Shown in pieces: positions 21,324 through 61,710 of a DNA stretch of 64,000 bases. Position 1 is the stretch's first letter. Each line of letters opens with the position of its first letter. Location: the NCBI GenBank assembly GCA_950295325.1, contig OX485809.1, positions 13,888,001-13,952,000 of the forward strand. Reading direction: 5' to 3'. This DNA comes from Polytrichum commune. Taxonomy: Eukaryota; Streptophyta; Polytrichopsida; Polytrichales; Polytrichaceae. The position numbers were made by a program, and so were the translations under genes. A model generated the notes under the pieces. It was not told the origin of the DNA. It was given only the letters and a program-made list of their open reading frames with translations, and did no database searches.

Positions 21324-21435
21324 GGGGGGTGCTATCATGTGAGTGGTGAGCGGTGAGCAATGAGCAGTAAGTTGTGAGCATTGAGGGACGAAAAATAATT
21401 GGAATTACACCCAATATTATCCTATAACCGTGGTA
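21324..21435 (+). repeat. Terminal inverted repeat, methyltransferase side, copy 1
   Basis: GCTATCATGTGAGTGGTGAG, then CGGTGAGCAATGAGCAGTAA: degenerate heptads of GAGCGGT type at 21,331-21,370. A subterminal CCTATAACCGTGGTATT follows at 21,421-21,437, about 97 bases from the outer end. The equivalent end of copy 2 has CCTATAACCGCGGGATT about 92 bases in. Confidence 0.7.
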
Positions 21436-24400
21436 TTTTGGCATAATTAGTTGCATATTTCTTTATATATTAGAAGTGGGGAGTGCAAACAAAATGTAAC
21501 AGACCTAATGAATTTATCACAAATCTACTTTCAAAATCAATAACCACAAGATTGGCATGAGGGTTTCATGATGAATCTTAATATTGTTGTTAGATTCAAC
21601 AAAACAAATGTAAACATATTTCAAGCATTGAGAAATGCATTAATGGAGGTGTTTCCGGGGGGGGGGGAACTAAGTTATTTGAGCATATCGTTTATGAGTA
21701 AGAAGAATTTGCTTACTTAAAATCACTCTCCACTAGTTGTGGTAATTCAAAAACAATGCAAAGAAATGACCTCAATTGTTTTGTTTTATTAGAATGTCAA
21801 ATCCAATGTCATTTCACATTTCTAACCAACCATATCCAATTCAATCAAACATATGGTGGATGATATTTTCAACTATCTAAATGCCCCCATTGTCATCTAA
21901 TGCCTCTAAATAGAACAACATCTCCACATTGGTATTAAATGGGTGAGACTTTGGCCGACTTGTAGGTGTTGACGTGGCCGCTTGTGCTAGAGCAATGCTC
22001 TCCGCATATACAGGAAGCAACAACGACCTAGGAGGAGATGATAATTGCTTCATCATCTTGCCAACACTGCATTTAGATATACACAATGAGGGTTAGTTAC
22101 TTTGACGATACACAAATTCACAAATATTCAATAAATTCAAATAGGTTGGGCAAAACTCACGTACTCAAACGTGATTTTCTGGCTACTTTGCGAGGAGGTT
22201 CATCATCCTCCTCCAATGAAGGTGGTTGTGATGATTGACCAATTACGGGATTTTGCGATGAGAACTCGCGAAGCGGTTGAAGTATCTTATTAAAGATAAG
22301 ATCATCTGCCTCGTAAGCAATAAGATGGCGTCCACTTTTACGACATGCGTGGATAGAGGCACCTGAAATAAAATGAAATTAAACAATATATTCAGTATAT
22401 ATTCTATAAGCAATACAATGCATTAGATGGCAGAAAGTCTAATGAATCATTAAGGTAGAAAAACAGAGGGTCGATGGTAGATATGGAGATTGTAAATCCA
22501 CCGGTAGAAGCTGTGACATCAATGACCACCGCTCCAGGCTTACATAAAGCCTCAATAAACATTTGCATAAAGATAGGATTTTTCATGAGCTCCTCGCCAA
22601 GGCACAGAACCATTTATTAGTTGAATTTTCTCAGTTGTGTAGTTAAAATAAACATCGTCTTCGCGAACACATACACCTTATTTTTCGAACTCAATATTTT
22701 TGTTGAATGATACTTTCACATGTGCATTTTTCTCACGACAATATAACAAGATTCGGAATTTGCGTGACTGCCACAAACAAATAATATACACATATAAGTA
22801 AAAACTATATAATTTGATTTTGTATAAATTCAAAATCCATTGAAAATATTCAGGAGAAATATTGTACTTACTGTGGCAGAAACATCGATACCAGAGCACA
22901 ATTTTATGCCATTCACACCCCACCAATTTTTCAATAAAGTGAAGCCGTAAGTAGCCGAATATGTACGAACATCTTGACGTACATCTTTACATTCCGAAAT
23001 GAACAAAAGAATAAATGCATTGTCGTGAAGGAACGAAAATGCGAACTCAAATATTACTTCAATTTCGGTGGTGTTGTGCTTATTCTATTCTAGAACAACT
23101 GAAGGAGGAAAAGAAATATACATCATAGGGAGACCTTCAGGCAAATCTGCAATTAACAAATCAAAACCTCGTTGCGGGCATGTGTCGCTGGATACATTTG
23201 TGATTCTCAAACCATCAAACTGTTGCACATAACAACAAATAATCAATATCGTTAATAATCAAACTTCAATTAAAAATCTTCCAAACTGACAATGTGCAAA
23301 TATAAATATTAGCAAAATACTTACTTGTTTGACAAATTCATTTGTTTTCGACAATACTCTAGCAAATGCCCCAGTGACAACCTTAAGAACGAAAGTATTT
23401 TCTAACATAACTCGAGCAGCGATCCGAGGCAATACTTTCATTGTTGATATCCCGGTCATTTGCACACAATTATCATATTGCGCGAGGTCCACATGATCTC
23501 CACTTGCACTTGCTCTTGACACCACATGTTTTTTTGTTCCGGATGATCCTAAGACCACATTTTCTTGAGAAGGAGTGTCAGAAACTTTAAAACCACGTTT
23601 GCGTTCTGCACGAAACTCTGGAACAACACTACAATTAACTTCTGGAGGAATTAATTCTGAAAGACAAACATCATTACCAACATAGTTTCTTTCTTCTTAT
23701 TCTTCTATAGTACAAAATGTAAGTGCACATTCCAAAAACCAAGGACACGATTGCAAAATTCTCAGAGGCCATGTTTCCATATGAGACGGTTCGAAAATAC
23801 AGATCACTGCATTTATCAACCCACGCTGCCAAATATTGAGGCAAACTTTGTTCAGGAATAGCACCCTTCACTACCAATTCTGGTCGTAAATATCTACAAT
23901 GAATTAGAATCCAAAGAATTTAAAAATCATCTAAAAAAATATATCATAAACAAAGTGAAAGAACTTTCATAATTAAATAATATAAAAAATAAATCATAGT
24001 GATAAGTAAAGTAAAAACCAAATTGCATCACAATATCCAGCATATAAAGAATACGCTTAATGATTGAATCTGCTCCATGAACTTTCATGAGCTGGGTAGA
24101 TTTTGTAAATGGTGGATTTCCTTTCATTATTGTCATAAATTATTTTCCCCATAACAAAATTCTCCACTTTTCAATGTAATCCGAAAGTGATAGCGCGCCT
24201 GTGTTAAATTTGATATTTTCCATTTCATCTTTCATTGATTCAAATTCATTGACAACGGCTACTTCCATCTATATTAAAATACACATCAACACATTAATAC
24301 GTTAATACATTAACCCATCCCAATATGAAATCATGCATTTAGAAAAATAATTATTTATCGTCAATGAAAATAGAAGTACCTGAGCCCAAAATGATGTTTT

Positions 24401-25914
24401 TGATAACCATGCATCTAATTCAGAGTCTTTGGTATCATTTGAAGTCAAATGTAGAGAAACCCGAGACATAGAACTAGAATTCCAACATTTAAGCCATCTA
24501 GCTTTGAATTGGCGAGGTACACGAGTAGTGGCTATTTTCTGAAGCTTCTCCAACGTGAGTTCTGGTTTAGAGTTGGAAGTCCAGTGTTTATTAATCTGCA
24601 TACAACAATATTCAAAAATTAAAACCGAAAAAACTTAAACACAATATAATGATTTAGAAGTGTTTATATAAGAACATACCTCCACCATAAAATCATCTCC
24701 ATTTACAAGATCCGCTACCGCGAACATCTTGTCAAATTCTTTTTTTCTAAACGATTTGACAATTGCAGCTGTAGCTTTGTTCATTTCCTCCCACTCTCCT
24801 TTTGCAAATTGTTTTTTTATTGGAATCTTTTCTTTGTACAACCTGGATGCCTCATCAGCAGCAGTCACCACCTCTCTGTGTATATAAGAGCCATACACCA
24901 ATAGCAATTACACACTTAATTTTTTTTTAAATCAAACAAATTTTTTAATTTATACCTTATAAACCAAAGTTACAAACATATCGATCGTCAAAGAATACCA
25001 CGTAGTCTTTGATTTTTTTTTTCACGCAATTTGCGTAGTCCTCAGATGAAATAAGCTCTTTAAATTCATCAAGCTTTAAAATGCCTATATTCCGTATGCG
25101 ATGAATCTTATTGGGTAAACTGGTTTTTACATGATTGTTCTCAGTGGATCTGCAAAGCACACAATATATAAATCATTAAAAACAATTAAAAATAAAAAAT
25201 ATCAAATAAAATGGTTGAGTTTGGTAATTGTTATTAACTGGTTGACATCATTCATAGCATCGAGGAGTACTCCGACTGAGCCTTTTGGATCCAAAAAAAT
25301 ACAACTCAATGAATAATGCCAGTGTTCTTCATCATAATGATGGTGTTCAATGTGGCGTAACCATGCTGTCACTCGATGGTTACCCTCCCAAACATAAAAC
25401 ATTTTGCGCTTAAATTTATGCAAATCTTTGTCCTTATCCAATTCCTTCTCAAAACATTGATTTGCACGTTGTCAATGTTGGTCCCAAGAGCTAACTGTCT
25501 CATCCGTAACATCAAGAAAAGAACCATCATTTTTGGTAACTGACATATATAACACACGATCTCCTTCCCTATAGCCATTGGAAAATTCAGTTTTTAATAA
25601 TTGAACATCGCCTCAAGGATTGGTCTAACCAACGGTAAAACCACAAGATGACACAATGGAACACAAAATCGCGATTTCGCATGTGGGGCCACCCGTAGTT
25701 GGTTGATGATAGAATTAAAATCTGTTCTTATCAACCTACGAGCATCAAGATCTTTGTCTTCCAAAACCTGATAATTAACATCCACATAATAAAGAATAAA
25801 TAATTAGAAACCTATCGAACTAATTTTTTTGAACTCACCAAAACAAATTTAGACAAGATATTCATAATATGCTATGAATTCAAACAATATACCTTTGATG
25901 AATAAAGCATATCA

Positions 25915-27330
25915 TGGACATATCAACATGTAATCACTTGAACTTAGAAACATTAGAATCAAGTGTGACTATCTTCAAAAACCTCCCTACTTGAGTTTGA
26001 AAAATATGACAGGTTGAAGGTCGAGGTTCTTCATAAATTACCCGTAATTTTTTAGGAATGCATACAATATACATGTAGGTTATAAAACATATTATGAAGA
26101 TATCAACATGTAACCAGTTGGACTTGAGAAAACTATAATCAAATTCGACTATGCCCCAAAACCTCCCCTGTTGAGTTTGAAAGAATAACAAATTAAAGGT
26201 CAAGACTTTATAGAACACTTACATATCAACTTTTGATAGATCTCAAAAATATACATGAAATGAATGAAGCAAAACCTAAGTAATCAACATGTAATCATTT
26301 GGACTTGGAAACACTAGCATCGGGACAAACGATGTTCCCAATTGATTTTAACAGATTGCAGCTAAAGTTCGAGACTATCGAACACTTAAAATTCAGATTT
26401 TCATATATCTTAAATAAAACAAAACTCGAAAACATCTACATGTAATCAGTGGCACTTGGAAGCACTAGGATCGGGACAAACTATGTCCTAGAAACTCCCA
26501 GTTGATTGTAACAGATAGTAGCCGAAGTTTGAACACTTAAAAACACTTAAAAATCAGATTTTGATAAATCTAAAAAGCACACCTGAAATCAATTAAGCAA
26601 AACCTATCAACATGTAACATGTTGGACTTGGAAACACTAGCATCGGGGCAGACCATGCCTTAAAACTACCAGATGATTTTCACAGATTGCAACTAAAGTT
26701 CGAGACTGTCGTACACTTAAAAATCAGATTTTGATCAATCTTAAATATATACCTAAAATGAATGAAGATAAACTTTACATATCCACATGTAAATTGTTGG
26801 ACTTGGAAACAAGGGGCAGTACGATTAAACCCCAAACCTTTGAATGCTCACAAGCCATAAATGAACTTTTAATGAGGAGGGAGGGCTGATCACCCCCTTC
26901 CCCCCTTCACCCAACAAAAATCTGGTAGAATTCTGGAAGTGCAAAATTCTGTCAGTTGTACCTTCGGCAACAAAAGTACAACTGACAGAATTTTGCCAAG
27001 TTTGTGCATAATACACCTCATTTGAAAAACCAAACTCGAAAACATCTACATGTAATCACTGGGACTTGGAAGCACCAGGATCGAGACAAACTCTGTCCTA
27101 GAAACTACCAATTGATTTTAACAGATAGTAGCTGAAGTTCGAACACCTAAAAGCACTTAAAATCAGATTTTGATCAATCTAAAAAGCACCCCTGAAATGA
27201 ATTAAGCAAAACATATCAACATGTAACCTGTTGGACTTGGAAACACTAGCATCGGGGCAGACTATGCCCTAAAACCTAAACTATCAACATGTAACCTATT
27301 GGACTTGAAAACACTAAAATCTCATGCCAT
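25915..27330. repeat. Degenerate tandem array, units about 155-180 bp, in an intron
   Basis: The phrase CAACATGTAAYNNNTTGGAC followed by TTGGAAACACTAGNATCGGG recurs near 25,928, 26,106, 26,284, 26,440, 26,605, 26,784, 27,045, 27,217 and 27,286. The array is interrupted at about 26,813-27,020 by unrelated sequence carrying a hairpin. It occupies the intron between the N-terminal exons and the ParB-like exon of the minus-strand methyltransferase gene. Confidence 0.8.
26941..26996. repeat. Perfect 21-bp hairpin, 14-base loop
   Basis: 26,941-26,961 (21 bases, GCAAAATTCTG through GTTGTAC) is the exact reverse complement of 26,976-26,996. It lies within a roughly 200-base insertion that interrupts the tandem array and may be a small foldback element. 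Confidence 0.9.
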
Positions 27331-27379
27331 AATGAAAAAGTTAGGGTTTGGGGGAGAAAACTTGGATTGGAGAGGCTTT

Positions 27380-27615
27380 GTGCACTTCTCCATCATCCCC
27401 CTCGCTCCTGCCGTCCTCCTTGGCATGTTCTACCTTGTCATTTGCCTCCTCTTCTTCCTCCTCCCCCTTATCCTCTTCCTCCTTTTCATTTGGGTCATGT
27501 TCCTCGCCCTCTCCTCCACTTTCTTATTCTTCTTCTTCTTCCTCTCCCCTTAGTTGGCTAGCCTCATCTTCATCTTTGTCTTCATCTTCTTTCTCCTCAT
27601 CTTCTCCCATTTGGC
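27380..27615. repeat. Pyrimidine-rich low-complexity tract
   Basis: Long TCCTCTTCTTCCTCC-type runs. On the minus strand this reads as Glu/Asp/Lys-rich sequence (EEEEEE, DEDKDED), which could be the acidic second exon of the methyltransferase gene. The plus-strand Ser/Pro/Leu open frames are artefacts of composition. Confidence 0.6.
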
Positions 27616-28433
27616 CTTCCTCCACTACCTCCAATACCACCTCATTGATGTTCCCAACTTGTTGCTCGTTGGCCGCGCCAACGGATCTCCGCATTGATCT
27701 GCGGCATGGCAACATTGGGGGTCGGGGAGAAGTGATGGTGAGAGGCATAGTGGCGTTCCCCCTCCCATGAGCCTTCTTTGCCATTGAGTGAGGCCGTACA
27801 GAATGAGAACTCATCCTCTCCTTCCCAACACCCCATTCCAAACCCTAAATTCAATAACCAATAAGTTTCTACTTCCACTCTAGGCAATGACTAGGAAATT
27901 AACATTCAATAGATAATAGGTCAAATTCTTACTTCTAGTGTGTTTTGGGACTCCACTTCTTCTTCATTATCTTGGATATCAAGCCTTGTCTCACTGATAA
28001 TTTCTACATCCTCTTTCCCATAGATGTCAGGTTGTTCCGTATCAATCCCTTCATTGAGGAGTTCCGTGTCTTCCACTATTTTTTCAAATGTTAGAATTCG
28101 TGTGGTGGCACCTATGCCGCATTTTGTAAATCTAGTCAAATTCTTCCCCATCCTCGACCGCTCTAATGCTTTCCATGTCGAGTACTTGGAGGATCCCTTT
28201 CATCTGCGTTTCTTCAAGGGAGCTGAGAATTGTGAATGTGTGGACACATCTTCGTCAAGCATTTGCACAAATCAAATCGGTAACTAATTAGCAAAACAAA
28301 TAGAAAATGAACGCCTCATGTCTTATTGTTGTTTTGCTTCAAGAATAAATTGTGCGTTCTCCACATCCATATGTATTTAATGTATCATATAATACAACAA
28401 GACCAACAACAACATGCCTTAACCATCGAAATC

Positions 28434-28922
28434 TTAAGGGCGCTTCACACTATGGCCGAAGGTCAAGAGGCCATCGATTTCCACCAATCAAATTGCAAGA
28501 AACCAAGAGTTCAGCCTCTCAACCCTTTACACTATGGCCAAAGTCCAAAGGCCGTCGCAATTTAATATGATTACTTTTTGAAGAAGGCGATGGACTCTCA
28601 AAGGAAGTTTGGATCGGACGGGAATGGTAACTCAAACTATAGTCGAGAGGCCGTCGGTTTTTTTCAATAAAAAATCAATCATTGACAAGATGTTGGCCAT
28701 TAGATTGGAAGGGTTATTTGAGCAAGGAATAAAGTGTGATGCCCCTTTGGGTTGGGACTTTGGGCTTGGCTTTTGGAGGCTTCACACTATGCCCGGCCAA
28801 AGGCTCCACTTACTATATTTTATTGGCTATTTTGAGCCCATTTCTTTAGACTCCCAACAAAGTTTGGCCACTCAATCCCACGGCCTTTCGACTTGGACGG
28901 CCATAGTGTGAAGCAGCCCTTA
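28434..28922. mobile_element. MITE with 24-bp inverted ends in the divergent promoter
   Basis: It starts AGGGCGCTTCACACTATGGC and ends with GCCATAGTGTGAAGCAGCCC, with TTA on both outer sides, consistent with the 3-bp duplication of PIF/Harbinger (Tourist-like) elements. Internal phrases such as GGTCAAGAGGCC and CAAAGGCCGTCG suggest sub-repeats. It lies between the start regions of the two divergent genes of transposon copy 1 and roughly doubles their spacing. Confidence 0.75.
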
Positions 28923-29273
28923 GAGTTTCACATTTCCATACGTCAAAGCCTATTATTGGCCGTCACAAATTTAAAATTTGTGTGTAGATGCATTGTATGT
29001 GGTGGGGTTTCTATTTAAGGTGCATAACACCCTTGCATTATTTCACATCCTACTCAAGTTGTCATTGCAATATTTTTGAGTATTTTTTAAAAATAAGCCA
29101 TGTGAATTCAAATAATAAAACCATTACCACTACCCAAATTGTAGTATCAATATACAAAGTTTATGAAGATGTATTGTCAGTGTTATTTGTGTCTACATTA
29201 TTTGATATATATGTCATGCATCATTTGCATTCTTCATTTTTGTGAGTCTGCATTGAATTTGTTTTTTTTTCCA

Positions 29274-32200
29274 ATGGCATCTCTTCGAGCGGGAGGTTGT
29301 TCTATTCCTTTCACTCTTCCTTTAGATGCAAATGATTTTGTAATGGTCCACGAGAATTTGCTAAGTCTTAAGTTTAACTTTCGCCTTGGTACCATGTATG
29401 TCGAACAAGAATTATTCCAAGAGACTGGTGAGTTGTGTGAGGCGGTTTTGATTCAAAAATCAAGAGTGGATAGTGGTTGTTTTTGGTCATTGGGTGTAGG
29501 CTCATTCAAAGTGATAGGATTGTTTGAATCGGAGATGGATGCATCCACAGTGTTGTTGACAAATGAGTTCATTACACCCGCACCGCAAAACCATTCTCTT
29601 CGCAAGGTTAAATTGGAGGTAGATGATGTGATGGTCCTTAGTGATTCAGATGAAGATAACATCAAAGTGGTGGACATTGCACAAACTTCATCTTATCCAT
29701 TTCAATCTTTGTGTTCTTCTCCTTCTACATCTTCTGTACAAGCTTTGCTTGGTAATGATCCCTCCCCTTACAAACCATTGAACTTGAGTATTTTTTATCA
29801 CCACATATCCTCCAAAAAACCTCATGTTCATCCTACGTCATCCATATATGATGTCCATGTATTAGAAACCCTCAAAATCACCAAATGTCGTAGAAGAACC
29901 AAATCCGATCTCACAAATATTGACTTCGATAACATTGCTATAGAGGATGTGAAGTATCTGCCGTCTTCTTTCAATGGGGATGTCCTTTTCATTTTGCCAC
30001 CGGTCAAGACTGGAATTCCAGATGCTTATGGCAAGGCGATGGATGGCATAGACAAGATTTACAACGGACATGCCTGGTGCATAACCAAAACAACAAACAT
30101 TCAAAATGAATTTGGTTTGACTTTTCGGAGGTCTTCATGCGTTGGTCATTTCCAATGTCCTAACGACTCATGTGAGTATTTTTCACAAAATGGTGGAGTT
30201 CCCAACTCTACTGAATGGATCGGTATTACACCCACTCCTTTCATGGTTGGTACAGACCCACCAGAGAAATCTAAGGTTCAATGCAAGGTTTGTCATGCCG
30301 CTCCCATATGTCTTGATGCTTGCTATGCAAAAATTATATACGTACATTCACAATCGTCAAACATGTCCCGTGTTTGTATTCATTTGGGTGTTCACAACCA
30401 CCTTGTGTCTAGTGGAGTGTGTCGTGAGTCATTAGACATGGCTTACCAGTGTGTGGTAAATGAGATGGCTAAAACTCCAACTGCAAAGAACTCGGCTATT
30501 GTTATGGCTGCTAGTAAACAATTTTTGGCTGATTACATCCTCAAATCCCCACTCCTAGGAGAAAAAAACCATCTTCATGGAGCATCCTTGGAGGTGGTAA
30601 TGGATAAATTCTCCACTTTGGTATCCCCTAACTATAGGAACTTTGTGGCGGGTTCCAAACGTTTCATTCGTAGTGGGATGGGTTCCCTGGATAGCATCAT
30701 GGCGCTGAAAAACCACTCTGGGTTCAAATATGTGCATGATAGTCGATTTCCAGGGCAATCCAAAGATAAGGTCTTTGTGTTCAAGATGTATGTGGATCTT
30801 GCTGGAAGTGGAATCGATTTGGTTAAGCGCATGCAGTATGGAGGAGACATAGAAAATTCGTGGATCATGTTTGATCATGTGAAGCGTTTACGAGATTGGA
30901 CTACAATGGCGTGTCATGTCTACGATAGCAAACATTGCAAGGTTCTCACAATAGCATGTTGTGATATGCAATTGGAGGATGCTCGGGCCCAAATCATTTT
31001 TTGGGAAAATTTAAATGCTGTCATGTTGGAGAATGGTGTTCCCAATGTCAATTTCAAAGGATTCATGGCGGATAATGCCCAAACAAATTGGATTGTTGTG
31101 AGGAAGATTTACGGGGATGGTGACCCATCTGTTCCTCTCAAGGGTCGCGAACAAACATGTTTTTTTCATCGGGCTGCCAATTTGGATAAAATAACACAAA
31201 AACACATCCGACCGTCATTGCAACATGAACACAAACAACTTTGTAAAGACTACAAGGATGCCAAAAGTTTGGAGGACGCCGACATCAAATACCATGTAAT
31301 ACGGGCATGGTGGTTGTCATCAGGGGCAACCACCGAGGAGGGCATGTACAGCTCGTCGGAATGGTTGGGGTTTTGGCATTATCGATATAGACAATGGGGA
31401 GGTCACATGCTCATTGTAATTTTCTCCTATACACAAGTGCCCCTTCTCTACTATTGATAAAATTGTTGTGTCATCTCAATTTTTAAAACAAAAAATATCC
31501 CCAATATGTACTACAGGATCTGACTTTGGATCAGCGTGTTGAGATGCCAACTTGCAACCTAGCAGAATCAGTGCATAACAAGTGGCTACAACAATTAGGG
31601 AACAAAATGACATGCTTGTACGAGGCAACCGTGGATGACATGATCCGTGCATTCATGCAGATTGCAAATTATCGTTATTGGCTTAAAGGGGGCTTTTTAG
31701 GGAAATGTCCAGATCAAGCATCATTGAAGCTCAAAGCTACAGCACACACTGGTGATCCCAAGCTTCTTGCAGAGGCAATGAGGTCATACCCTGGGGCAAA
31801 GGATCTTAATACAAGGAATTGTGCACTTGAGGGCTCTGAGTTGTTTGGATCAACCAAGACAAAACTTGACTTACCACCTAGATCTGAGTATGATTCTCAT
31901 CGTCCCGACAAAGTGAACTACTCCATCCCTCACCCTAATACAAGTCAACGAGGGCACGCATAGATGAATCCTTCAAGCGTGATGAGAATATGGTGTCTCA
32001 CACCACTAATGTGTTGGAGTCAAAGTGTCCTGAATCCCAATTCACGATTGCCTTATCCGTCCAAGAAAGAGTGTCAAGCATTGCAGGCCAATACTGGACA
32101 TCCATGTAGGGCTAAAGTTGGGAAAATACACATGGCACACCTGCGCCAACGTACACAGGCATGAAAAAAGAATACCGTTCCGACAAATTTTTGGTTTTGT

Positions 32201-32809
32201 GCAGATGACATTAATCGATGTGTGAAGGGGAGCAAGAAGAAATGGGTGTTTGATTGGCCAAATCTCCCTAAGGTGTGGCCAGTGAAGGTTGGTACAAACC
32301 TTACACGGGAGGAGGTGTTTACATTGGAAGATGTTGGGTTTCAACTGCAACAGAAAGAGGCACTGTCACCATGTCGTCGATTGAGAACAATGACAAACCT
32401 CCCCATCCCTCGTTCACATTTTTGTGTTCCTCCAAACCCAGATGCGCATCCAAACACACGGTTTTCTAAGGCAGTTCAACGGAAAATGCCAGCACCATTA
32501 TCAGAGCACAAGAATAAATGGGAGAGCGCATTACACATGGATGGGTATTATGTGGTTGGTGTGACTCCCATTCCATACCCTGGATACGGATGCATCATAA
32601 CCATAGTTTCCAAAGAAGAGAAGACATACCTTGTCTTCATTGCAGATATTCCACAATGCACTTGCCCGGACTTTGTGAAAATGTTGTCTTTGGCAGTGGG
32701 AAAAAGGGGTCAGTGGGTTTCATGCAAGCACTTGTATTACGTGTTCAGGTATTTGTGCAAGGTTGACTACGCCACTGACAAGTTCATTCATGCACCAACA
32801 TTCAGCTAA
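29274..32809 (+). pseudogene. Mutator-like transposase with SWIM zinc finger, copy 1
   Basis: Would excise and insert the element. ATG at 29,274 (MASLRAGGCSIPF) matches the start of the homologue at 43,825. Exon 1 (29,274-31,415, 714 codons) has a variable N-terminal part, a Cys/His cluster (CVGHFQCPNDSCEYF, CKVCHAAPICLDAC, CIHLGVHNH) like the WRKY-GCM1/FLYWCH fingers of MULE transposases, then a DDE-type core with candidate acidic residues in CHVYDSKHCKVLTIA, FKGFMADNAQTNW and TTEEGMYSSSEW. A 101-base GT..AG intron (31,416-31,516) is conserved in the other copy. Exon 2 continues with MPTCNLAESVHNKWLQ and ends with a SWIM finger, CTCPDF through CKHLYYVF (about 32,658-32,740). One frame holds throughout, but TAG at 31,961-31,963 and TGA at 32,162-32,164 break it. 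Assignment to the Mutator superfamily is from domain order. Confidence 0.8.
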
Positions 32810-33061
32810 ATGAGGTGATGCGACTTCTTGAGCTCGCGGGTGTTGCAGAAAAGGCGTAGTGGCATAGGGGTGAAGGGCACGGACGCAATTATTCATCACT
32901 TTTACATATATAGAAATATTTGTATATATCCATATGAAATGTATGTAGTACAAACTGATGGTACAACTCAATAGTTGTTTGTCACAATAAAGTGCTCGGC
33001 ATTTCAATGCCGTACTTGACATGTCAATAAAATGATTATCACCGTGGATCAACAAACTTCC

Positions 33062-48905: not shown

Positions 48906-48918
48906 CTCACCCCCACCA
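48906..48918 (-). promoter_or_regulatory. Polypurine tract (plus-strand primer)
   Basis: On the minus strand, GGTGGGGGTGAG ends directly at the start of the 3-prime LTR, the usual place and composition of a polypurine tract. Confidence 0.7.
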
Positions 48919-50113: not shown

Positions 50114-50157
50114 GAACTTTGGAGTGAGGCCTTCCGGCTAAGTGACATTGTTCACAT

Positions 50158-50860
50158 TCAACAACACCTTTTGGCCCACCTCATTCTCCACTTCGCGTCT
50201 TCGGCATTGACTTGCACTCCGTAGCACCTTCGGGCTTTCTCCACCACCAACTTGGTCATCTCCAAGACTTGTTTACCATCCTTGGCCAAGTCCTCACCAT
50301 CTTGGTTGAACTCTAGTGTTGAATGTGCCCCCTCGAGAGCTAGGTTAATAGGTTGGAGCGCATCCACTCCATAAGCCACCACGAAAGACCACCCCTTGGT
50401 GGCCAAGTGCGTGGCTACATTGCAATTACACTTCGCTCGACCCACATAGTCCGCCCAATCTCTTTGGTCCGCCCCCACCAAGTTCCTCAAGTATTGCTTC
50501 AAGACTCCATTCACACGCTCCGTTTTCCCATTCATTTGGGAATGCAAGGTCGTGCTAAACCTTAGTTTCATTCCGACCTCCTTAGAGAAATGCATTGAAA
50601 ATGCACTTGTGAACTTTAGATCTTGATCCCACACAATTACTCTTGGCAACCCGTGGTGCCTCAACCATCATTTGAGAAAAGGCTATGCAGTCTCCAACGC
50701 GGTGGCGGTTCCCACAATCGGCACCATATGTACCAACTTGGCAAACCGCTCTACCATCAACAAGATGGCATCATACCCATATGACTCCGGGAAACTTGTG
50801 ATCAAGTCCATGCACATACTATGTCATGGTGCCGACGGGATAGGCAACGGTTGCAAGAAA
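50158..50860 (-). pseudogene. Integrase core of the gypsy element
   Basis: Reading down from 50,860: a zinc-binding-domain end (SGFLQPLPIPSAP), CMDLITSFPESYGYDAILL with the first catalytic Asp, two stops, then HGLPRVIVWDQDLKFTSAF with the second Asp, and HSQMNGKTERVNGVLKQYLR with the Glu. All three catalytic residues are present. The stretch 50,664-50,158 is open for 168 codons. Confidence 0.85.
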
Positions 50861-51374
50861 CCGCTTTGCTTTTGTTAAGAGGCTCGGTTCACTTGGCACT
50901 TTATTCACGCCTTCACAAAGTGGGTTATATCCTCCTTTATGCACCGCCAATGGTACCTCTTTGACACCATTCTATGGCGGTTTTTTTTTTTCTTTCTCCT
51001 CTATGGCCGGCAATAGGACTATCATATTCTTCAAAACCGATAGCCTCAACTTGCCTTGTGGCACATACACCCAACTTTGCTTGCACTTGAACAATCCGTC
51101 CACCAACTTAACCTCTTTGAGCACCTTGCTCTTGCGAAGCTCACCTAAAAGCTTTTGTGCCTTGGGGTAGTTAATTTTCCCCTCCTGTATCTTGCATCAC
51201 AAGTTTCCTTCGCTGGCACACATTAGCCACAAGGTTTGGATGGTTCTCATTACTTGGAACTCTTCCGGTCTACTTCGCGCATCCGGCACCACATTTCCAT
51301 GGTCCGGTTTGTGGATCAAATCCACCTTCATAAGCGCCAAACTATCATGCCACCGCAATGACTTGGCGTTCACT

Positions 51375-52440
51375 TGCGCTTGTATGTCAAAATTCTTTTA
51401 GGACACATTGTCCATGTAGACCTTTGCTTTGTGCGACCCCAAATAGTGTCGCCACATCTTCAAGCAATGCACTACGGCAAAGAAGTTCTTTGTCATGAGT
51501 TGGTTGTCTTCTTTGACAACCATCGAGCCTCATGCCCCCATATGCAATGGCCATCCATCTTACATTAACAATACACCATTGGCACAGTTATTCGCCCCCA
51601 TATGCACCTCAAAAGGTTTGTCAAACTCCACGAACTTGAGCACGGGCGGCAAAGAGAACTTGGTCTTAAGCTCCCCAAAGACTTGGTTGCAAGGCTCATC
51701 CCACTTTTGGGATAGTCATTTCTTCCACAAGTCGGATAAGGTCGGATAACCATCGAGCTTAATGCTCTCATATGCAATGGCCATCCATCTTACATTAACC
51801 ATCCGCCAATGGCAAAGTCACTCGCCCCCCGTATGCACCTCAAAAGGTTTTTCAAGCTCCGCGAACTTGAACACGGGTGGCAAAGAGGACTTTGTCTTAA
51901 GCTCCCCAAAGACTTTGGGACAAGGCTCATCCCACTCTTGAGATAGCTTTTTCTTTCACAACTCGCACAAGGTTTGACAACCTTTAAGCTTAATGGTCCC
52001 ATATGCAATGGGCATCCATCTTGGATCAACATCCGCCAATGGTAAAGTCACTTGCCCCCGTATGCACCTCAAAAGGTTTGTCAAATTCCGCGAACTTGAG
52101 CACGGGCGGCGAAGAGAACTTCGTCTTAAGCTCCTCAAGGACTTGGTGGCACGGCTCATCCCACTCTTGGGATAGCCATGTCTTGCACAAGCCGGACAAG
52201 GTTTAACAACCATTGAGCTTATTGCTCTCATATGCAATGGTCCTTCATCTTGGATCAACATCCGCCAATGGTAAAGTCCTTCGTCTCCATGTGCACCTCA
52301 AAATGCTTATGAAAACCTGGAAACTTAACCACATCTTGCGAAGGGAACTTGCTCTTGAGCTTCCCAAGGGCTTGGTGACAAGGCTCATCCCACTCTTGGG
52401 ATAGCCATTTCCTTAATAAGTTGAGTAAGGTCCTAGCAAC
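51375..52440 (-). pseudogene. RT thumb/RNase H region with a fourfold tandem duplication
   Basis: The minus strand encodes FEVHMGAN..GVLLM and MTKNFFAVVHCLKMWRHYLGSHKAKVYMDNV, the RNase H of gypsy pol. The upstream piece (DEPCHQVL.ELKTKF..PPVLKF..FDKPFEVH) is present four times. The marker TATGCACCTCAAAAGGTTT and variants lies at 51,601, 51,832, 52,061 and about 52,290, spacing 229-231 bases. The units are diverged from each other, so the amplification is not recent. Confidence 0.8.
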
Positions 52441-53160
52441 CTTAAAACAAATCTAGAATGAAGTGGTGGTAGTAGTTGGCTAGGCCAACCAATGACCTAA
52501 ACCTTTTTGAGTCAAGGGCCAATTCTCCTCTTGGATTGCCTTGACATTCTTCATGTTTGTCCACCAACTTCCTTTGTCACCCCATGCCTCAAGAACTCAA
52601 TTATTTCTTGAGCAAAGTTGCAATTCACTCCTTGGCGGTAACATTTTGAATAACACATTGGTGAATACATCCTTGTATCTCACCAACATCCCATAAGTAT
52701 GGTTTGGGGGAGGCCCATCTTTCCTAGCCTCCCCATGAGTTCCTTGGAATTGCTCCAATTGAACCACGACCATTATGTTTACCATTTTTCATTTGGTTCA
52801 TTAAGACCAAATTCAACTTGGGTCCTCCTACCATAGGAGTCCTTGTCAATTTGTAGTTCAATTCTTTGCCATCATGGCATATCACAAATGCACCGCAAGC
52901 TCATCAACTTGCACCTCACATCTTTCATGTGAGTTTCAAAGAAGGTGTCCTCCAAAGTGAGGGCACCTCATCCATTTTACATAGTGTAAAATGTCCACAA
53001 ATTCCAATGTCCCACATTATAACGTCAAAGACATCGCCATTACCTTATTTCATGGGGTTCACCCTTAGAGACCGCGCATTAATGAGCTTGCCCACTATAC
53101 GCGTCGGCAAGCCCCAACACCTTATGAGCTTCGGCTCATCAAGGAGTATGTTGACTCTTT
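52441..53160 (-). pseudogene. Reverse transcriptase remnant
   Basis: Near 52,520-52,440 the minus strand reads FRSLVGLANYYHHFI, the conserved connection after gypsy RT (FLGL.NYYRRFI in the family). Upstream pieces are scrambled by frameshifts. The YxDD catalytic box could not be located with confidence. Confidence 0.55.
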
Positions 53161-53510
53161 GTCAATCCATAAGACTTGGCCTCGGCCTAAGGCTACTAGC
53201 CTTGGCCACAAAGCCATCGTCCAACATGCCGTCCTCGGCAACTTGGCTTGGCTTGGTCCGCAAACCCAACTTTAAACATTCCGTCCGCGGGACAAATTGG
53301 TTTGGTGCCACAAAACCAATTTCTAATAGTTTGTCCGCGGAACAAACATGTTTTCCCTTGATAGCACAAAACCACCTTCCCACACTCCGTCTGCGGCACG
53401 AACATGAATTGCCTTGGTAGGACAAACCCACCTCCCAACATTCCGTCCGCGGCATGAGTATGATTTGCCTTGGAAGCATAAAGCCACCTTTCAACATTCC
53501 GTTAGCGGCA
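53161..53510 (-). repeat. Coding-length minisatellite, about 57-60 bp units
   Basis: Units with TTCCGTCCGCGGCA, CTTGG and CAAA..CACC recur about six times. On the minus strand they give 19-20 residue repeats of type RTECWEVGLSYQGNS. It lies between the Gag/protease part and RT. Confidence 0.7.
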
Positions 53511-54110
53511 CCAACATGTTTTGCCTAAGTAAAATGGACCAAACAATTTGCACTCATTTCTTTGGGACCTACTTTGGCTAAAGCCACTTGTGGTGCTGCG
53601 CCGCCAAACTTTTCTTCGGGACCATCGGATTCAATGATCTTGCAAACTTAAAACCCCACCTAAAACGATGCATTTCTTAAAAAGCTCGTCCGTTTTGGGT
53701 GTATCCTTCATTTGTGCGTTTGAATAGCGTACATAGGCCTTAAGAGGCCCCGGGTGCCTCATTAGCACCAAGTTCATTTCAACATCCGAACCTTCGAAGC
53801 ATCTCGAATTGAAATTTCAATCCAACATTAATACCCTCCAAGGTTTTGGGTGCATTCGGTATTCTAGGCCCCAAATACTATTTGACGTTTGCGGGAGCCC
53901 TTTCAAAGGACACCTCCATTTTCCTCACCGAATCCACCCTCATGCCCACCATTACCATTAAAATCAATGGTATGGTCAAACTCCATTTGCACATGATCCT
54001 TGTTCCAATTTGAGCCTCACAACCTTTTGGAAACCCCGGGCTCACCATCATAACCCGCACATTTGCTAGCCATGTCTCCCTCAAAGTGCGAGCCCAAATA
54101 TTGGAACCCT
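53511..54110 (-). pseudogene. Gypsy 5-prime internal region (leader/Gag remnant)
   Basis: Between the PBS and the minisatellite there are only short broken frames. One, at 54,132-53,878, begins near the PBS. By position this should hold Gag, but no zinc knuckle or capsid motif is recognisable. Confidence 0.4.
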
Positions 54111-54122
54111 GCTCTGATACCA
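54111..54122 (-). promoter_or_regulatory. Primer binding site, initiator tRNA-Met type
   Basis: The minus strand reads TGGTATCAGAGCAGGG two bases after the LTR-type end (CTTGGTATCAG). TGGTATCAGAGC is the standard plant retrotransposon primer site complementary to the 3-prime end of initiator tRNA-Met. This fixes the element's orientation. Confidence 0.9.
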
Positions 54123-54124
54123 AG

Positions 54125-54295
54125 TGTCGCAACCCTTGCTAGCCCCCTTGACAATCTTGCCAATTTTCATTTTCTAGCAAAGGTTACGAGCGCTAACCCT
54201 TCGCATTCCGCCATGCTAATGGTTAGCTCCTCTTACCCCGGACCATATAGTTCATAGGAGGGAACCAACCCTCCTACTTTGCTTTCGGGACTCAC
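54125..54295 (-). repeat. Extra 171-bp partial LTR between the 5-prime LTR and the PBS
   Basis: Repeats the first 171 plus-strand bases of the LTR (TGTCGCAACC to CTTTCGGGACTCAC) and abuts the complete LTR at 54,296. In element orientation the LTR 3-prime end is therefore duplicated. Its sequence is closer to the 3-prime LTR than to the abutting 5-prime LTR in places (CTTGACAATCTTGCCAATTT). Confidence 0.85.
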
Positions 54296-55269
54296 TGTCG
54301 CAACCCTTGCTAGCCCTCCTTGACCATCTTGCCAATTTTCGTTTCTAGCAAAGGTTACGAGCGCTAACCATTCGCATTCCGCCATGCTAATGGATAGCTC
54401 CTCTTACCCCGGACCAATAGTTCATAGGAGGGAACCAACCCTCCTACTTTGCTTTCGGGACTCACCCCTTAATCGGTAACCCATTTCCCCAATGTGGACT
54501 TCCATCCATGGAAGTCCAATCCTATGTTGATCATCGCGTTGCCGGAGCAACACTACAACAACCCGAACCATACTAGGCAACTATGGCCTCACAATGGGCC
54601 AATGCCCATGGAGGCCGTGCCGTTCGGCCTCGGGTGGGTGAGGCCACACCACCTCACCCATATAAGCCTCTAGGACTTCACGCGGGGCCCCTACCCCACC
54701 GTCAACCAACCTCTTGTCTCTCTACCAAGAGTTGGGGCCAAGTGGACATTTTCCTTTAGCTGCTGGGCCTAGAACCCCCCCAGCAGCTTCAGACCATCAT
54801 AACTTCCTTGTATGATGTCTGATCATAACAACCAACCACTCCATCCTCATCTACGCTTCACGTAGATGCCGATGGACTCCTCACTTGCCCCATTCGGGCA
54901 AGTATTGAGGAAGTTATGCCTGTTTGAACCTTGGCAGTCCCGGGAATCCCTCCCAGGCACTGCTGTACCAGGGCGCTGTCCCGGGACAGCGCCCCACTCA
55001 AATGGCCATAACTCCTAGCTCACACCTCCGATTGAGGTGATCTTGAGCATTCTAGAATCACCACGCCATGAGCTACGCATAGCTCATGGCCTTACCCTCA
55101 TGCCTCCTAGTCTCTGTGGGTGGGAGGCGTTCCCAACGCCCGGGGCCCTCACCCACACTAGGATCACTTGGGCCCTCTCACCAATGGCGCCACAAGTCCC
55201 GGGTGTCACTCCGGGGTCCCCCTTGTGCCCATGGTGTTTCGGGCACTCCTCATGGAGAGGTGCGCGACA
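54296..55269 (-). repeat. 5-prime LTR of the gypsy element
   Basis: 974 bases, TGTCGCAACC to TGCGCGACA, nearly identical to the 3-prime LTR with scattered substitutions. The TSD CTTGG follows at 55,270-55,274. Confidence 0.9.
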
Positions 55270-55274
55270 CTTGG

Positions 55275-56560: not shown

Positions 56561-56634
56561 TGAATATTGGGTGACATTGTTCATCCTATTGGTTCTTATG
56601 TTGGCAAGTAATTGATTCTCAGGAGATTGTTGAG

Positions 56635-59600
56635 ATGGTTGCGGATGGAGAGTCATTGGATGTTGGGGTTCGCATTGGCGCTGGGTCATCCCTTAATGTA
56701 GAGGAGCATATGGAGCAAGGGTCTTCGTTGTCATGTGCTGAACCTACTAGACTTACACCAGGTAGTGGCGAACTGCATACACCCGGGATGACACTCACCG
56801 GCTCACCACCAGAATCGGATGTGGGTGTTCGTGTAATGGAATATCGGATTCGCCACAATTTTAAAAAAGATAGTTTTTCAGTTGTTGAGGGCATGAGGAT
56901 ACAACCGGTCGAAAAGTCCTCTATAATAATTCCCCTTTGCAGGTTGATTCACATGCCATTGGTTCGGCCAACTCTCCGCAGCGACGTTACAAAGCTCATG
57001 GCAGCATTTCAATTTGGATACCGAGCTGGGTCTGCCACTTTTTATGTGTCTACTGCAAATGAGAGTGGAGAGAATCGATTCATTTCTGGCAAAGACAAGC
57101 GTGAATGGGGAGAGCTATGAAATGCAAAAAATGATAAGTTTGAGTTTTTTTGCGCTCGGATAAGGACTTGATGAGCCTTAATAGATGCATGTTCTTTGTG
57201 TATGATGGTAACCACCACTTGCTAGCGTGGAAGGAATGTATTGAAACAGATCACAAAGACGATGCACTTTGGTACGAGAAGCATGGTTGCCTAGAATGTG
57301 TCATCCTCGACACAACGGGTGGGCGTGGAGACGTCCTTAACGCAATGCACGACATAAACAAGTAAGTTTGTTATTTTTTTGAATTTTTTTTCCTTCATTT
57401 TTTGATTTTCATCTAATGCCATTTATCTCAACCGCAACAGGGCTAACCAAACCGCGCACGTTAAAACTAGCCTTGTTCACACTCTACACCGCATCAAAAA
57501 ATACGGTTCGTATGATCTTAGCTACTACCAGCCATTGTTGACCGAGGAGCAATTCCAAGCGTGCAAGAGCAGAGGCCCCAAGAGCCCTTGGTACCCGCTG
57601 ACCCAGGATCTTATGGTGTCCTTCATTTTCAATGTAAGTCACTCCAAATTCATCAAGCTCCTACTTCGCATTCATTACTTTTAGTCATGATCTAACAATT
57701 TAGAATACATGTCCAGCAAGAGATAGCCGATGCGGTAGATGAGGCAACCCAAATCTTCAAGGAGGAAGTGCCTCTAGATGAGTAGTCAGGGAAGGGGTTG
57801 AGTGATGTATTGGACGCTGTAATTAAGAAGACGTCTGAGGAACTTGGGCACAAGTTCAACAAACAACAGTCGATTGCAAACCCTGCCCTTGGAAAACAGT
57901 TCCTAGATGAGGTAATTTCCTTGTCATCCAATTTGGAATTATGTTTTTCGTATTGCTTGCATTCTTTGCAGCATTTTTTCAGTAAACATTCTAAAATTTA
58001 CTTGGCCTTCTATTTTGATTGCATTTGTTTCAGATTACTAGGCATTATAGCGCCCACCATTCTCAAAAGATTGAGATGACATTGGAGAAATTGCAACTCA
58101 TTGCCACTGCCGCTGTCGACCCAAAGTATAAAGTCCGTTGGTTTAAGTGGTGGAACAGTGTAAGTTTCAATCGTGAAGCTATCCGGTTTTCCAAAAGTCC
58201 TGCAAGCGAGGACAACTTGAAATCTTGGCTTAATAAAGCAGCGTTCTGGGCAGGGGTACGTCTATCCTATTTTCTTTACTTACCTTTCAATTCTTCATTT
58301 TGTGCCAATTCTCATGTTCGCCTTGAATTTCTTCACAGCTAGAGGATGTTGCGGTCAAGGAGTTACCGGATATATTAAGTGCATTGGGTGGGCTTGACGA
58401 AGACGTGGAAGTTGATTCGTTGCCGGATTACTTGGAGAAGTGGCGAATTTGCCTTTGGGATAAGGCGTTCATTGGTCACTTCTCAGGGTCAGATATCTAT
58501 GGAAAGGGTACGTGGTGGAAGGATGTCAAAGGCGTTGACAACATTGTCAAGCGCTTAATTTTCCGGTAAGTTAGTTGGGCCATCTTTTGTTCTCATTTAT
58601 ATCAAACTAGTTGTTTTCTAAGTTGCTTATTGGCCTCACTCCTTGGTTGTGAAGGTACATCAAGCACGAGCTTTTCAAGAAGAAGGCTTTGAAGAAGCTT
58701 CCTCCATTTCTGGATGCATGGTCGGATTCCTCTTCGCCCACCTTCATTTTTTCCCCAGCTCAAAAGCGCAACTTCTCCCTCCCGCATCTCCGCGAGTGTT
58801 GCTGGTACTTGGAGTGTAAGAGGACGTGGCAGCCGGATGAGGAGGCGGCCTTGAAGATTCGGCTCTCCGGTGGAGAGCCACCTTCTCAAAGCGATGAGGT
58901 TGTTCTTCTAGAGAGTCAGCTTCCGAAGGCGGATGAGGTTGTTGCGACTCTCGATGAGCCCAACACTCAGAAGTCCAAGAGGAGGAAGCGTGCGACTCAA
59001 GACGAGTCTTCACTGAAGAAGCGCGCGAGGAAGCTGAAGACTGTGGAGGATGATCCCCCTGCTTCACCTGAGGCGGCAGTTGCATCCACTGCAACTCTTA
59101 GTCAAGTTCCTACTCTTTCCAGGCCGCCTCCTCCGCCCGTTCTTTCATCTGCTAGGCGTCCTCCAGTTGTTTCAGAATGCATCTTGAATACCTCTATTCT
59201 TCATCAACGTCGTCATTTTCAGGATGTTTCCAACTTCACTCTTTCTCTTCCACCCTCCTATCCGCGGAGAGCTCTAGGCGTTGCGAGGTCAGATGTGGGC
59301 ATGGCTGATCTTGTCATTGCCGACCTCCCGGAGAACCTGCCGGTACCCAATGTCTCCGATCCTTCCTATAGTGTGCCTTCCTAGAATGCATTGGATTCCG
59401 ATTTTATTGGTGAACTCTTCGATTTCGCGGACGAGATCCTGCATGACGATGGAGCTCTCCTCCTCTTTCATCCAGATGACAATGGTGATTTCAGGGAGAG
59501 CATTGAAGACCACTTCGCTGCTTTTGGGTTCACGATCTTCAAGGAGTGGTTGGGAGTCAACCGTCTTCGCCTACATTCAGCTAAGCATAAGGACAAGACC

Positions 59601-60565
59601 ACCAACCTCTTCCAAGTTGTACTACTTGTTCGTGCCACGAAAACAATTGGATCCGACCTTGATAAGCGGCCCCGGCACTTGTCATTTCGCCTTCGCGATG
59701 CCAATGAGCTCAAGGCTCTTGGCATTGAGCTCGACATGGATGATGCGATTATGAATTATACCGCAACTCCTCTCATGGACGGCTCCAAAGCTTGGCGTGG
59801 TCCCCGGGAGAAAGATATTTCTTTCATGTCCTCCTTGATCATGGCCACTACGGACATTGGACAGGTTGTGGTGGACGTTAATGCAGGCGTTGGTATGTCC
59901 TAATTCACTTGCCAACATATCCTAGTTTTCAATTTCTAAGTTTGTTTTTTTTTCCTTTGCTAACATTTCCTCCGCAACAGGGACTTCTATCCATGCATGC
60001 AGGCAGCTTGGGCGCCATATCGTTGCTCTTGAGGAGGACAAGGACACCTTCAACCGTGTCCTTAAGCCACTTAAGAGTGTTCAGCCTGCGGTGAAGGCTC
60101 CATCCATTGTTGTTGCTTCCACGCAGGCTTCACAAGGCACGCAGAAGAGGCCGCCGGCCTTGAAGCGATCGAGGCCAGAGCCCTCGCAGTAAGTGAGTAT
60201 GATGACCTTCTTCGCTTATTTTCTTTGTCTATTCAGCTTTTACACTTTCCATCCTCTTTCTTACATTTATTGTGTTTTTTTTCAGACTTGGCGTTGGAGC
60301 GGATGTGTTGGGTACTCCCACCATGGGATTCACATTGCCTATCTATGCCCATGATATGGCGATGGTACTAGCGGCACAACCTTCTCCTACCGAAGCTAGT
60401 ACCCCGTCTCCACGTTATGACCCCCGTGCCTTAGACTTCTTCGAGCATTCTGCGGAGGTGGATAATGAGTGCCATAGCTTAGATTCCACTTCAGATGAGG
60501 GCGGCCATGAGGGTAGTATCTTTGGAAGTAGGGAATCTAGTAGTGACGACCTCATGGTTGATTGA
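56635..60565 (+). pseudogene. ParB-like domain plus beta-class DNA methyltransferase, copy 2 (main exons)
   Basis: Exons with GT..AG borders: about 56,635-57,361, 57,441-57,633, 57,717-57,911, 58,034-58,255, 58,339-58,565, 58,655-59,892, 59,981-60,188, 60,286-60,565; roughly 1,100 codons. Exon 1 holds the ParB/sulfiredoxin-like part: IIPLCRLIHMPLVRPTL, FQFGYRAG, then MFFVYDGNHHLLAWKE (the DGNHR-type motif). Exons 2-5 are helical and unrecognised (HVKTSLVHTLHRIKKYG, MTLEKLQLIATAAVDPKYK, LPDYLEKWRICLWDKAF). Exon 6 has a Lys-rich linker, then DLVIADLPENLP at the motif IV position, a hydrophobic strand DDGALLLFHPDD, WRGPREKDISFMSSLIM (motif X-like) and VVVDVNAGVG, which exon 7 completes as GTSIHACRQLGRHIVALEED (motif I). 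IV before X-I is beta-class order. Breaks: TGA 57,118-57,120, a T-run frameshift near 57,150, TAG about 57,797, TAG 59,382-59,384. Enzyme activity is inference: DLPE replaces the usual DPPY. Confidence 0.65.
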
Positions 60566-61540
60566 TTTTGGGTTTGATTGATTTGTTGGTTTGATTTATC
60601 GGTATTTGGATTTATAAAGTGTTGTGTGGATTTCAATATTCCAATTATCTCATTGAATGCATCTTTTCGTTGTTCTCAAATCACGCTTCACTTGGTGGTC
60701 GTCATACTCCAAAGAGAATTTAGTCCACCATCTTCTCACAATCTTAACCGCTAGTCACAAAACAATGTAGCATCCACCCACTCCAATAAAAAGTTGTTGC
60801 CTCACACACCTCCTCCTTGTTTCCTTGAATCATAAGTATTCAATAATACTTGTTGCACACCACCCAACACACTCCAATTCATACTACCCGCATTGCATTC
60901 TTCATTTTTGTTCACCATCTATAATGTTCACCCTCTATAAATGTTAACCCTCGGGAGTGGATCGAACTTTACATGTATAAAGGTGTTAACAGTTAACAAT
61001 TATAAAATTACTTCTTTGAGCAATATACAAATCTTAACATGTCCTAACTATAAGCAATTGTGAAGAGTAATTGTGAGAGAATACCATACACAAAATTGCA
61101 AACCCAATCAAAACTTTATTCAATATCAAGTTTACAAATCATGGGTGAATTATGAATGTATTTCAGTCGTTAACATTTATAGAGTCAAATTTACAAAGAA
61201 GGGAACACCGTTTTGTTAACAACTAACAGGTTTAACATTTATAGTGTGCAATATGTAGGGAGTAGAATAAAGTGAACATTTGGAAATGGTTAACACTTAT
61301 AGGTGTAACAGTAATAGAGGGTGGACTGTATGTGGAGAATTTTTTTCGCCAACCTCCTTCGTGTCACGTTCAAATAGTAAATATTATTTAATTTACCATA
61401 ATATAAAATATAGTACACCAGTTTGGTAATTATAATTGTGACGTCATAGTGATGTAAGCCCTAATTTTGTATTTTATTTTAATATTTCTATGTTTCAAAA
61501 ATCTATTAACTTTATGAATAGGGAAATGTTACTTTATTTC
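60566..61540. other. 3-prime flank of the methyltransferase gene, AT-rich
   Basis: About 1 kb without a gene. It contains scattered GTTAACA(N)TTATA phrases (near 60,950, 60,990, 61,225 and 61,295), a weak internal repetition. It is about twice as long as the matching interval in copy 1. Confidence 0.5.
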
Positions 61541-61710
61541 CACGGTAATAGAGTCCATAACTCTCCAAAGTTTCTAAAAATAGTTCAACTTTTTTCCCTC
61601 AATCCCGCGGTTATAGGTGCAGTTTCTCTCTCATTTTATGTCTCAAATTGAGTTCTCCGGTCTTCGGTCTTCGGTCTTCGCTCTCCGCTCGCATACTAAC
61701 TTTCCCCGGA
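61541..61710 (-). repeat. Terminal inverted repeat, methyltransferase side, copy 2
   Basis: Read inward: GTTAGTATGCGAGCGGAGAG, then GAAGACC triplicated. CCTATAACCGCGGGATT follows about 92 bases in (61,602-61,618) and CTCTATTACCGTGGAAAT about 157 bases in. The first matches the methyltransferase-side end of copy 1. Confidence 0.7.

Follow-up and report, generated by a model that had tools for sequence, protein, structure and literature searches.

A transposon family of Polytrichum commune with divergent MULE-like transposase and ParB-like/methyltransferase genes

Does a gene for a ParB-like/methyltransferase protein that stands beside a transposase gene in the genome of Polytrichum commune belong to the transposon itself, and what might its product do there? 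The question is posed by a stretch of 64,000 nucleotides, here called the window, which covers bases 13,888,001-13,952,000 of contig OX485809.1 (C7 below) in a host genome of 408 Mb and 64 contigs; positions given without a contig refer to the window. It contains two inverted copies of one design, copy A at 21,324-33,231, delimited by end motifs and by gene matches to copy B, and copy B at 38,422-61,707, in which the original prediction had seen a SWIM-type Mutator transposase gene and, divergent from it, a gene for a ParB-like protein with a beta-class DNA methyltransferase. When the open frames of copy B are set against the DNA of copy A, matches run along both genes, whose order and divergent arrangement are preserved in the inverted copy, and the proteins are as far diverged as had been claimed, with identities of 35-50% in the transposase pieces and 25-44% in the ParB/methyltransferase pieces. 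Exon order is likewise kept between the copies, and it is at this level, that of exon order, that the prediction of conserved exon borders holds.

Both genes of copy B lie between ends that share one 10-bp target site duplication, which places the second gene inside the element. Flank comparison identifies the left duplication, GGAAACTCAT (38,412-38,421, + strand), and the right one, GGAAACTCAC (61,708-61,717, +), as identical at 9 of 10 bases, and a second, near-identical genomic copy at 37.67 Mb of contig C1 (the C1 copy) matches the window as far as 61,707 and then stops; copy B is a damaged member of a family with near-identical copies elsewhere in the genome. Ends were fetched for the first 20 of the 26 paired copies other than the window copy, and the 18 with both ends found (C4:30503581 and C6:6870622 being uncounted) were scored together with copy B; the loci of this study lie on seven contigs of 42-78 Mb each. 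A 10-bp duplication matching at 9 or more positions flanks 18 of these 19 copies and is perfect in 16, the sole exception being C1:20235477 with flanks that match at 3 of 10, whereas none of 342 mismatched, cross-copy pairs of left and right flanks reaches 9 of 10. Far from being unrelated to copy boundaries, the inverted ends coincide with them, and the anatomy of the element is secure.

The terminal inverted repeats are short and degenerate, and, as predicted, an end motif of one kind is common to copy A, copy B and a third subfamily (GGGGAGTGCTATCTTATGAGCGG...). On the transposase side of copy B (38,422-38,480, +), GGACGAGACTTGTATG is followed by heptamer repeats TGAGCGG/AGAGCGG, and on its methyltransferase side (61,645-61,707, -) GGGGAAAGTTAGTATG precedes heptamer-like repeats; the ends of copy A carry GGGGGGTGCTATCATGTGAG plus heptamers on the methyltransferase side (21,324-21,385, +) and GGGAAGCTAGCATGTGAG plus heptamers on the transposase side (33,170-33,231, -). 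The limits of copy A are to be read with the caveat that a target duplication, looked for at 21,324 and 33,231, was not found there.

To what extent the two genes are coupled was determined by searches across the host genome. Queries were the main methyltransferase exon, two fragments of transposase B and the core of a diverged transposase, the listings comprising the best 116-150 of 1,072-1,807 candidate places per query; for the exon search used in the pairing counts, 150 of 159 matches were listed. Among these, 54 close copies (rows with a query span of 1-172 or 3-172 and at least 89% identity, window copy included) represent full-length exons, and for 43 of them a transposase is listed within 35 kb that is upstream and in opposite orientation. 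A null model in which loci fall uniformly at random on the seven large contigs, without repeat clustering, gave a mean of 0.73 such pairs and a maximum of 4 in 300 runs. Of all 150 listed exon matches, in which some loci appear as several pieces, 103 lie within 35 kb of a listed transposase and 47 have none listed; 97 of the 103 neighbours are upstream and opposite, the remaining 6 being spread over the other three arrangements. The copy-A type follows the same pattern in 64 rows hand-picked with the aim of one first-exon row per locus (later-exon, partial and weak rows omitted): 24 pair with a listed A-type transposase, every one upstream and opposite, and with all listings taken together 29 have a neighbour, 25 of these in that arrangement.

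Against complete coupling stand the 11 of 54 close exon copies with no listed transposase within 35 kb. Four loci were read for want of a listed partner, namely the exon loci C6:39020757 and C1:32049237 and the transposase loci L077 and L078, and the partner was present in all four; at C1:32049237 the transposase lies 31.5 kb off, beyond a nested transposon. One locus at first counted as unpaired proved to be a copy interrupted by a DUF7869 transposon nested within it, and another to have a transposase of a more diverged subfamily, a search with which raised the pairs from 28 to 43 of 54. The idea that about half of the near copies reside in another element, entertained while 26 of 54 lacked a listed transposase, thereby proved wrong. 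The methyltransferase gene is mostly not alone, and the coupling counts and duplications bear out the prediction that the pair travels together as one mobile element. A chance neighbourhood, with the methyltransferase gene part of a different element prone to landing next to the transposon, could draw on the repeat-rich window and on the copy split by another transposon; we reject it as hardly credible, given the ends with one shared 10-bp duplication that enclose both genes and the coupling counts, with their near-uniform arrangement of listed neighbours.

Two side observations concern abundance and age. The first-look candidates, 1,072-2,227 per query and most of them unscored, suggest a high copy number, and some exon copies are identical over 416 codons, which suggests recent activity.

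The transposase gene of copy A spans 29,274-32,809 (+) and that of copy B 38,968-43,963 (-), the latter in several frames and with a 1.15-kb insert at 41,845-42,998 that is absent from the C1 copy. Read by eye, the residues follow the order D...D-CxxH...N.aES...CxC..CxH, with D..D-CxxH..N.aES.. and a C-terminal SWIM-like finger in copy B and a SWIM-like finger at the 3' end of the gene in copy A. The 10-bp duplications fall within the range of 8-11 bp given for Mutator-like elements (MULEs) (PMC6446971). In the profile searches, the Pfam MULE transposase domain PF10551 matched neither the window pieces (E<=1) nor 20 family members (E<=5), the profile PF04434 for the SWIM zinc finger, which many but not all MULEs possess, scored the last exon of transposase B at 13.4 bits (E=0.057), below its cut-off of 19.6, and gave no match for the last exon of the copy A transposase, a SWIM profile search of the host genome returned nothing at E<=0.001, and a PDB profile search with the transposase found no relative. 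Because a Pfam MULE domain was not found and SWIM stays below its cut-off, we label the protein MULE-like rather than MULE: residue order, ends and duplications speak for the predicted SWIM-type Mutator transposase, and the Pfam profiles do not. The same negative searches could instead point to a separate, undescribed DDE superfamily with a SWIM-like finger and 10-bp duplications, a reading that we consider unlikely in view of the MULE-type residue order, seen by eye, and the length of the duplications. Relatives of both element proteins occur in public contigs (274 and 43 at E<=0.001), and among viral contigs 152 pattern matches were obtained, none of which was confirmed.

The second gene occupies 22,157-25,803 (-) in copy A and 56,594-60,192 (+) in copy B, where seven exons were mapped approximately from the spliced C1 copy, whose six predicted GT-AG introns yield a product of ~1,004 residues. 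In copy B itself the frame is broken near 57,120-57,143, and a stop codon interrupts it at 59,382-59,384; the C1 copy has neither defect. A motif of the DGNHR type marks ParB-like (ParB/Srx) domains, and the N-terminal exon of the C1 copy has it as FFVYDGNHRLLAW; the corresponding exon part of copy B (57,144-57,362, +) reads DGNHH where the C1 copy reads DGNHR, copy A has EGNHR at 25,373-25,384, and [DE]GNHR..AW is conserved in five of six aligned sequences, the GNHH of copy B being the departure. Profiles add little to the assignment, as PHROG ParB families match this part at E=0.18-0.47, a PDB profile search brings up no ParB and Pfam gives no match; since these results are weak, the name ParB-like is taken from the motif only.

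The C-terminal half resembles DNA methyltransferases by its matches. Beta-class N6/N4 enzymes have the permuted motif order IV...X-I, with motif I binding S-adenosylmethionine (AdoMet), and in the C1 copy VVVDINAGVGTS (motif I) follows the motif X region, with motif IV upstream. In copy B the main exon (58,653-59,900, +) contains motif IV as ADLPENLP, the motif X region as WRGPREKD and the start of motif I as VVVDVNAGVG, and the last exon (59,981-60,192, +) supplies the end of motif I and motif II, GTSIHACRQLGRHIVALEED; copy A has ADLPEGLP for motif IV and VIDVTASTGGASI for motif I. The spliced domain of the C1 copy matches Pfam N6_N4_Mtase (PF01555) at 28.4 bits (cut-off 26.7, E=2e-6) over the motif X region and AdoMet motif I, the latter completed only by splicing, and the C-terminal domain matches a PHROG DNA methyltransferase at 9e-8. 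Among PDB proteins, sequence comparison links it to DpnA at 7e-4 and to CcrM at 1e-3.

Could the protein be an active enzyme? The catalytic motif IV of N6/N4 methyltransferases is [DNS]PP[YFW], and several results weigh against a canonical enzyme. That motif was found in no copy read; 31 genome loci have ADLPENLP (21), ADIPENLP (9) or ADLLENLP (1), motif IV was located in 30 of 43 homologues (not in the other 13) and reads D-[LIV]-P-[ED] in 24 of them, and the third subfamily has LQFPDG. PF01555, moreover, gives no match for the approximate composite of copy A, stays below its cut-off for the composite of copy B (17.5 bits, E=0.004) and matches 1 of 20 unspliced homologues, at E=0.16. Since motif IV is not DPPY, any methyltransferase activity of the second protein is putative and may be lost, and the prediction of a ParB-like/beta-class methyltransferase stands for the GNHR..AW motif and for PF01555 in the spliced C1 copy but falls short in motif IV and in the ParB profiles, the best of which reaches E 0.18.

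It is accordingly quite possible, if short of probable, that the protein is a catalytically dead methyltransferase fold that binds DNA sequence-specifically, an anti-silencing or accessory factor like VANC of the VANDAL elements, without modifying DNA. Motif IV without PPY in all copies read and loss of its Asp in the third subfamily fit such a factor, as does the recognition by VANC proteins of short motifs in related elements (PMC13317346, PMC10398659, PMC5735166), while motif I and the motif X region, conserved in the AdoMet-binding half that drives the Pfam match, and the D.P pattern kept in most homologues where motif IV was located, argue for more than a dead fold.

Whether catalytic or not, the protein appears to be under selection. 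Pairwise comparison of the main exon at dS >0.08 gives a median ratio of nonsynonymous to synonymous substitution rates (dN/dS) of 0.22 (106 pairs), and the methyltransferase domain one of 0.20 (105 pairs). The set comprises 26 of 31 loci, 20 of them distinct, with an open frame of at least 300 residues, broken copies having been left out; the pairs are non-independent and represent open-frame loci only, which tempers the figures. The open exons are under purifying selection, and we read this as selection on the second protein. A passenger, that is, a host or bacterial gene captured in Pack-MULE style and without function, would accord with the frequency of gene capture in MULEs (PMC13317346) and with a protein type otherwise mainly prokaryotic; dN/dS values of about 0.2 among open exons, and a position and orientation that stay the same across subfamilies diverged to 30-45% identity, led us to reject it as very improbable.

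The two genes have nevertheless not diverged in step. At four loci (C3:48.39, C7:23.41, C2:10.75 and C3:54.81 Mb) transposases 89-91% identical to that of copy B are accompanied by exons that are 36-43% identical over the matched parts, at a similar exon-transposase distance of 13.2-14.5 kb. The converse is found at C6:39020757, where the exon is 95% identical to that of copy B and the transposase is of a ~62% identical class; DNA similarity to the window there starts at 44,551, just upstream of the transposase gene. This disagreement between transposase and methyltransferase divergence suggests that the gene has been exchanged between transposase lineages, and the simplest reading would be that halves of the element were swapped, with the breakpoint close to the divergent promoters and both genes retained. 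Cassette exchange as the cause is what we infer from the sequence comparisons.

Repeats within the element could provide sites of action for the second protein. Heptamers of the form [TA]GAGC occur four times per 80 bp at the methyltransferase-side end of copy A and at the transposase-side end of copy B, the only two spots in 64 kb with at least four per 80 bp, and six times in an end of subfamily 3, against a background of 0.14. Two points detract from this enrichment: the other ends read have one or two, and the pattern was picked after the ends had been seen. Three subfamilies have tandem arrays in the space that separates the genes: copy B repeats a 171-bp unit 3.4 times at 46,138-46,711 and the C1 copy a 170-bp unit 17.3 times, the diverged subfamily has, among others, 4.7 copies of 129 bp, and subfamily 3 has 8.7 and 11.7 copies of 64 bp; copy A has none above threshold. 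End repeats or arrays may serve as loading sites.

We therefore lean, if only slightly, towards a high-copy cut-and-paste family with divergent transposase and ParB-like/methyltransferase genes, whose second product is an accessory factor on the element's own DNA; action on that DNA is the best reading of the protein. In its fuller form the family has two divergent genes, the first for a SWIM-finger, MULE-like transposase that would act on the short inverted ends and leave 10-bp duplications, and the second for a protein of ~1,000 residues that combines a ParB-like motif near its N-terminus with a beta-class amino-methyltransferase domain (motif order IV...X-I) in its C-terminal part. The latter could load on repeated element DNA, either the end heptamers or the tandem array between the promoters, or both, and could methylate the element's DNA or at least bind it in an AdoMet-dependent way, so that the element would mark its own DNA and thereby counter host silencing or tune excision. 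DNA binding by the ParB-like part, methylation and an effect on silencing or transposition are all conjectural steps in this proposal.

Carried further, the proposal becomes one of self-marking, which we consider possible rather than probable. A ParB-like clamp on the element's own repeats would be coupled to a non-canonical (DLPE-type) amino-methyltransferase that writes N6-methyladenine (6mA) or N4-methylcytosine (4mC) on the ends or the array, self would be told apart from host DNA in order to escape silencing or to time transposition, and the cassette would be swapped among transposase lineages like the restriction-modification or partition modules of bacterial mobile elements. If this were true, transposons could bring their own N6/N4 methylation into a eukaryote, which would matter both for the dispute over eukaryotic 6mA/4mC signals and for the ways in which mobile DNA evades silencing.

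How new is such an element? The original prediction had held that no element with this pair was described, and as regards a SWIM/MULE-like transposase our searches agree: the open-access literature, which leaves subscription journals mostly outside its scope, yielded no MULE-like element with a ParB-methyltransferase gene. The gene type itself, however, is already known from Sola1-1_Ec32 of Ectocarpus, a giant DNA transposon of 21.5 kb with a 1,104-residue ParB-like and N4/N6 DNA methyltransferase protein encoded opposite the transposase strand; its authors raise the possibility that proteins of this sort bind the element that encodes them and modify it (PMC12477816). In view of that case we regard the present element as a variant of described ParB-methyltransferase transposons rather than a new kind. 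Compared by description only, both elements unite a ParB-like part (here by motif only) and an N4/N6 methyltransferase in a single gene that runs counter to the transposase, and they differ in that the brown algal element has a Sola1 transposase (PMC12477816), whereas the present one has a SWIM/MULE-like transposase and 10-bp duplications. What is added here, beyond the other transposase type, is great copy number, the measured purifying selection and the discordant divergence of both genes.

The same article refers to examples from green and red algae (Iyer 2011; Petroll 2025 on Bostrychia), in which transposons also encode ParB and methyltransferase proteins and giant EnSpm elements of red algae carry accessory genes, with transposase families that, as told there, differ from ours (PMC12477816). 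Among plant MULEs, the VANDAL and Hiun elements (vanB, vanC) are partly SWIM-bearing and have extra genes, one of which is epigenetic and counters silencing via recognition of short motifs; the available text does not present VANC as a methyltransferase or as ParB-like (PMC6446971, PMC13317346). Fungal TET/JBP transposons of several superfamilies likewise carry a DNA-modifying enzyme, with gene transfer between transposons inferred, but theirs is a dioxygenase and not a methyltransferase (PMC12730594). KnitGypsy-Dnmt3 (Ka/Ks below 0.2) and the DNMTs of Symbiodinium retrotransposons are mobile-element DNA methyltransferases, yet these are C5 enzymes of retrotransposons, with no ParB-like part described in the available text (PMC5890265), and the methyltransferase-bearing viral Mariner elements have three genes, again with no ParB-like part described there (PMC3627910). 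Phage ParB-N6_N4_Mtase fusions have the domain pair of our second protein, but are phage proteins, and the word stem "transpos" is absent from the main text of that article (PMC12704722). Against this background, the family can turn scattered algal reports of ParB-methyltransferase transposon genes into a testable system: a single genome at chromosome scale offers numerous near-identical copies flanked by duplications, a gene that splices into an open frame, purifying selection that has been measured, and a cassette found with different transposase lineages.

Other features of the window and genome lie in or near these elements. Copy B includes a probable nested retroelement at 47,926-55,270 (limits approximate), flanked on both sides by long direct repeats that are 99% identical over a 300-bp stretch at a spacing of 6,364; inside it an open reading frame (ORF) at 50,158-50,667 (-) appears integrase-like by eye and has no Pfam match, and the C1 copy also has relatives of the repeat, both in its centre and in its right flank. 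The nested stretch of ~17 kb at C1 ~32,030,500-32,047,800 (L075, L073, L074), which splits a ParB-methyltransferase gene, has ORFs for DUF7869 (PF25273, E=1e-42) and a NIF/FCP1-like phosphatase (PF03031, E=4e-15), together with ORFs that, by eye, resemble ParB-like and methyltransferase-like proteins (motifs IDGQHS and FGGS) and have no significant Pfam match. An ORF at 62,340-62,831 (-) resembles by eye the Myb/trihelix partner protein of PIF/Harbinger, with no Pfam match at E<=0.01, and inverted arms at 36,029-36,555 and 63,281-63,796, ~27 kb apart and 75-80% complementary, enclose copy B. Finally, a row of ORFs at 12,594-15,883 (+) comprises a gag-like frame with a zinc knuckle (by eye), an aspartyl-protease-like frame (PF13975, E=1.9e-4, below cut-off) and a C5 cytosine DNA methylase (PF00145, 34.2 bits, cut-off 22) with HCQ, by eye, where PCQ is expected; the row resembles a retroelement that encodes a DNMT of its own, comparable to KnitGypsy-Dnmt3 (PMC5890265), and would be a second methyltransferase-bearing element in the window.

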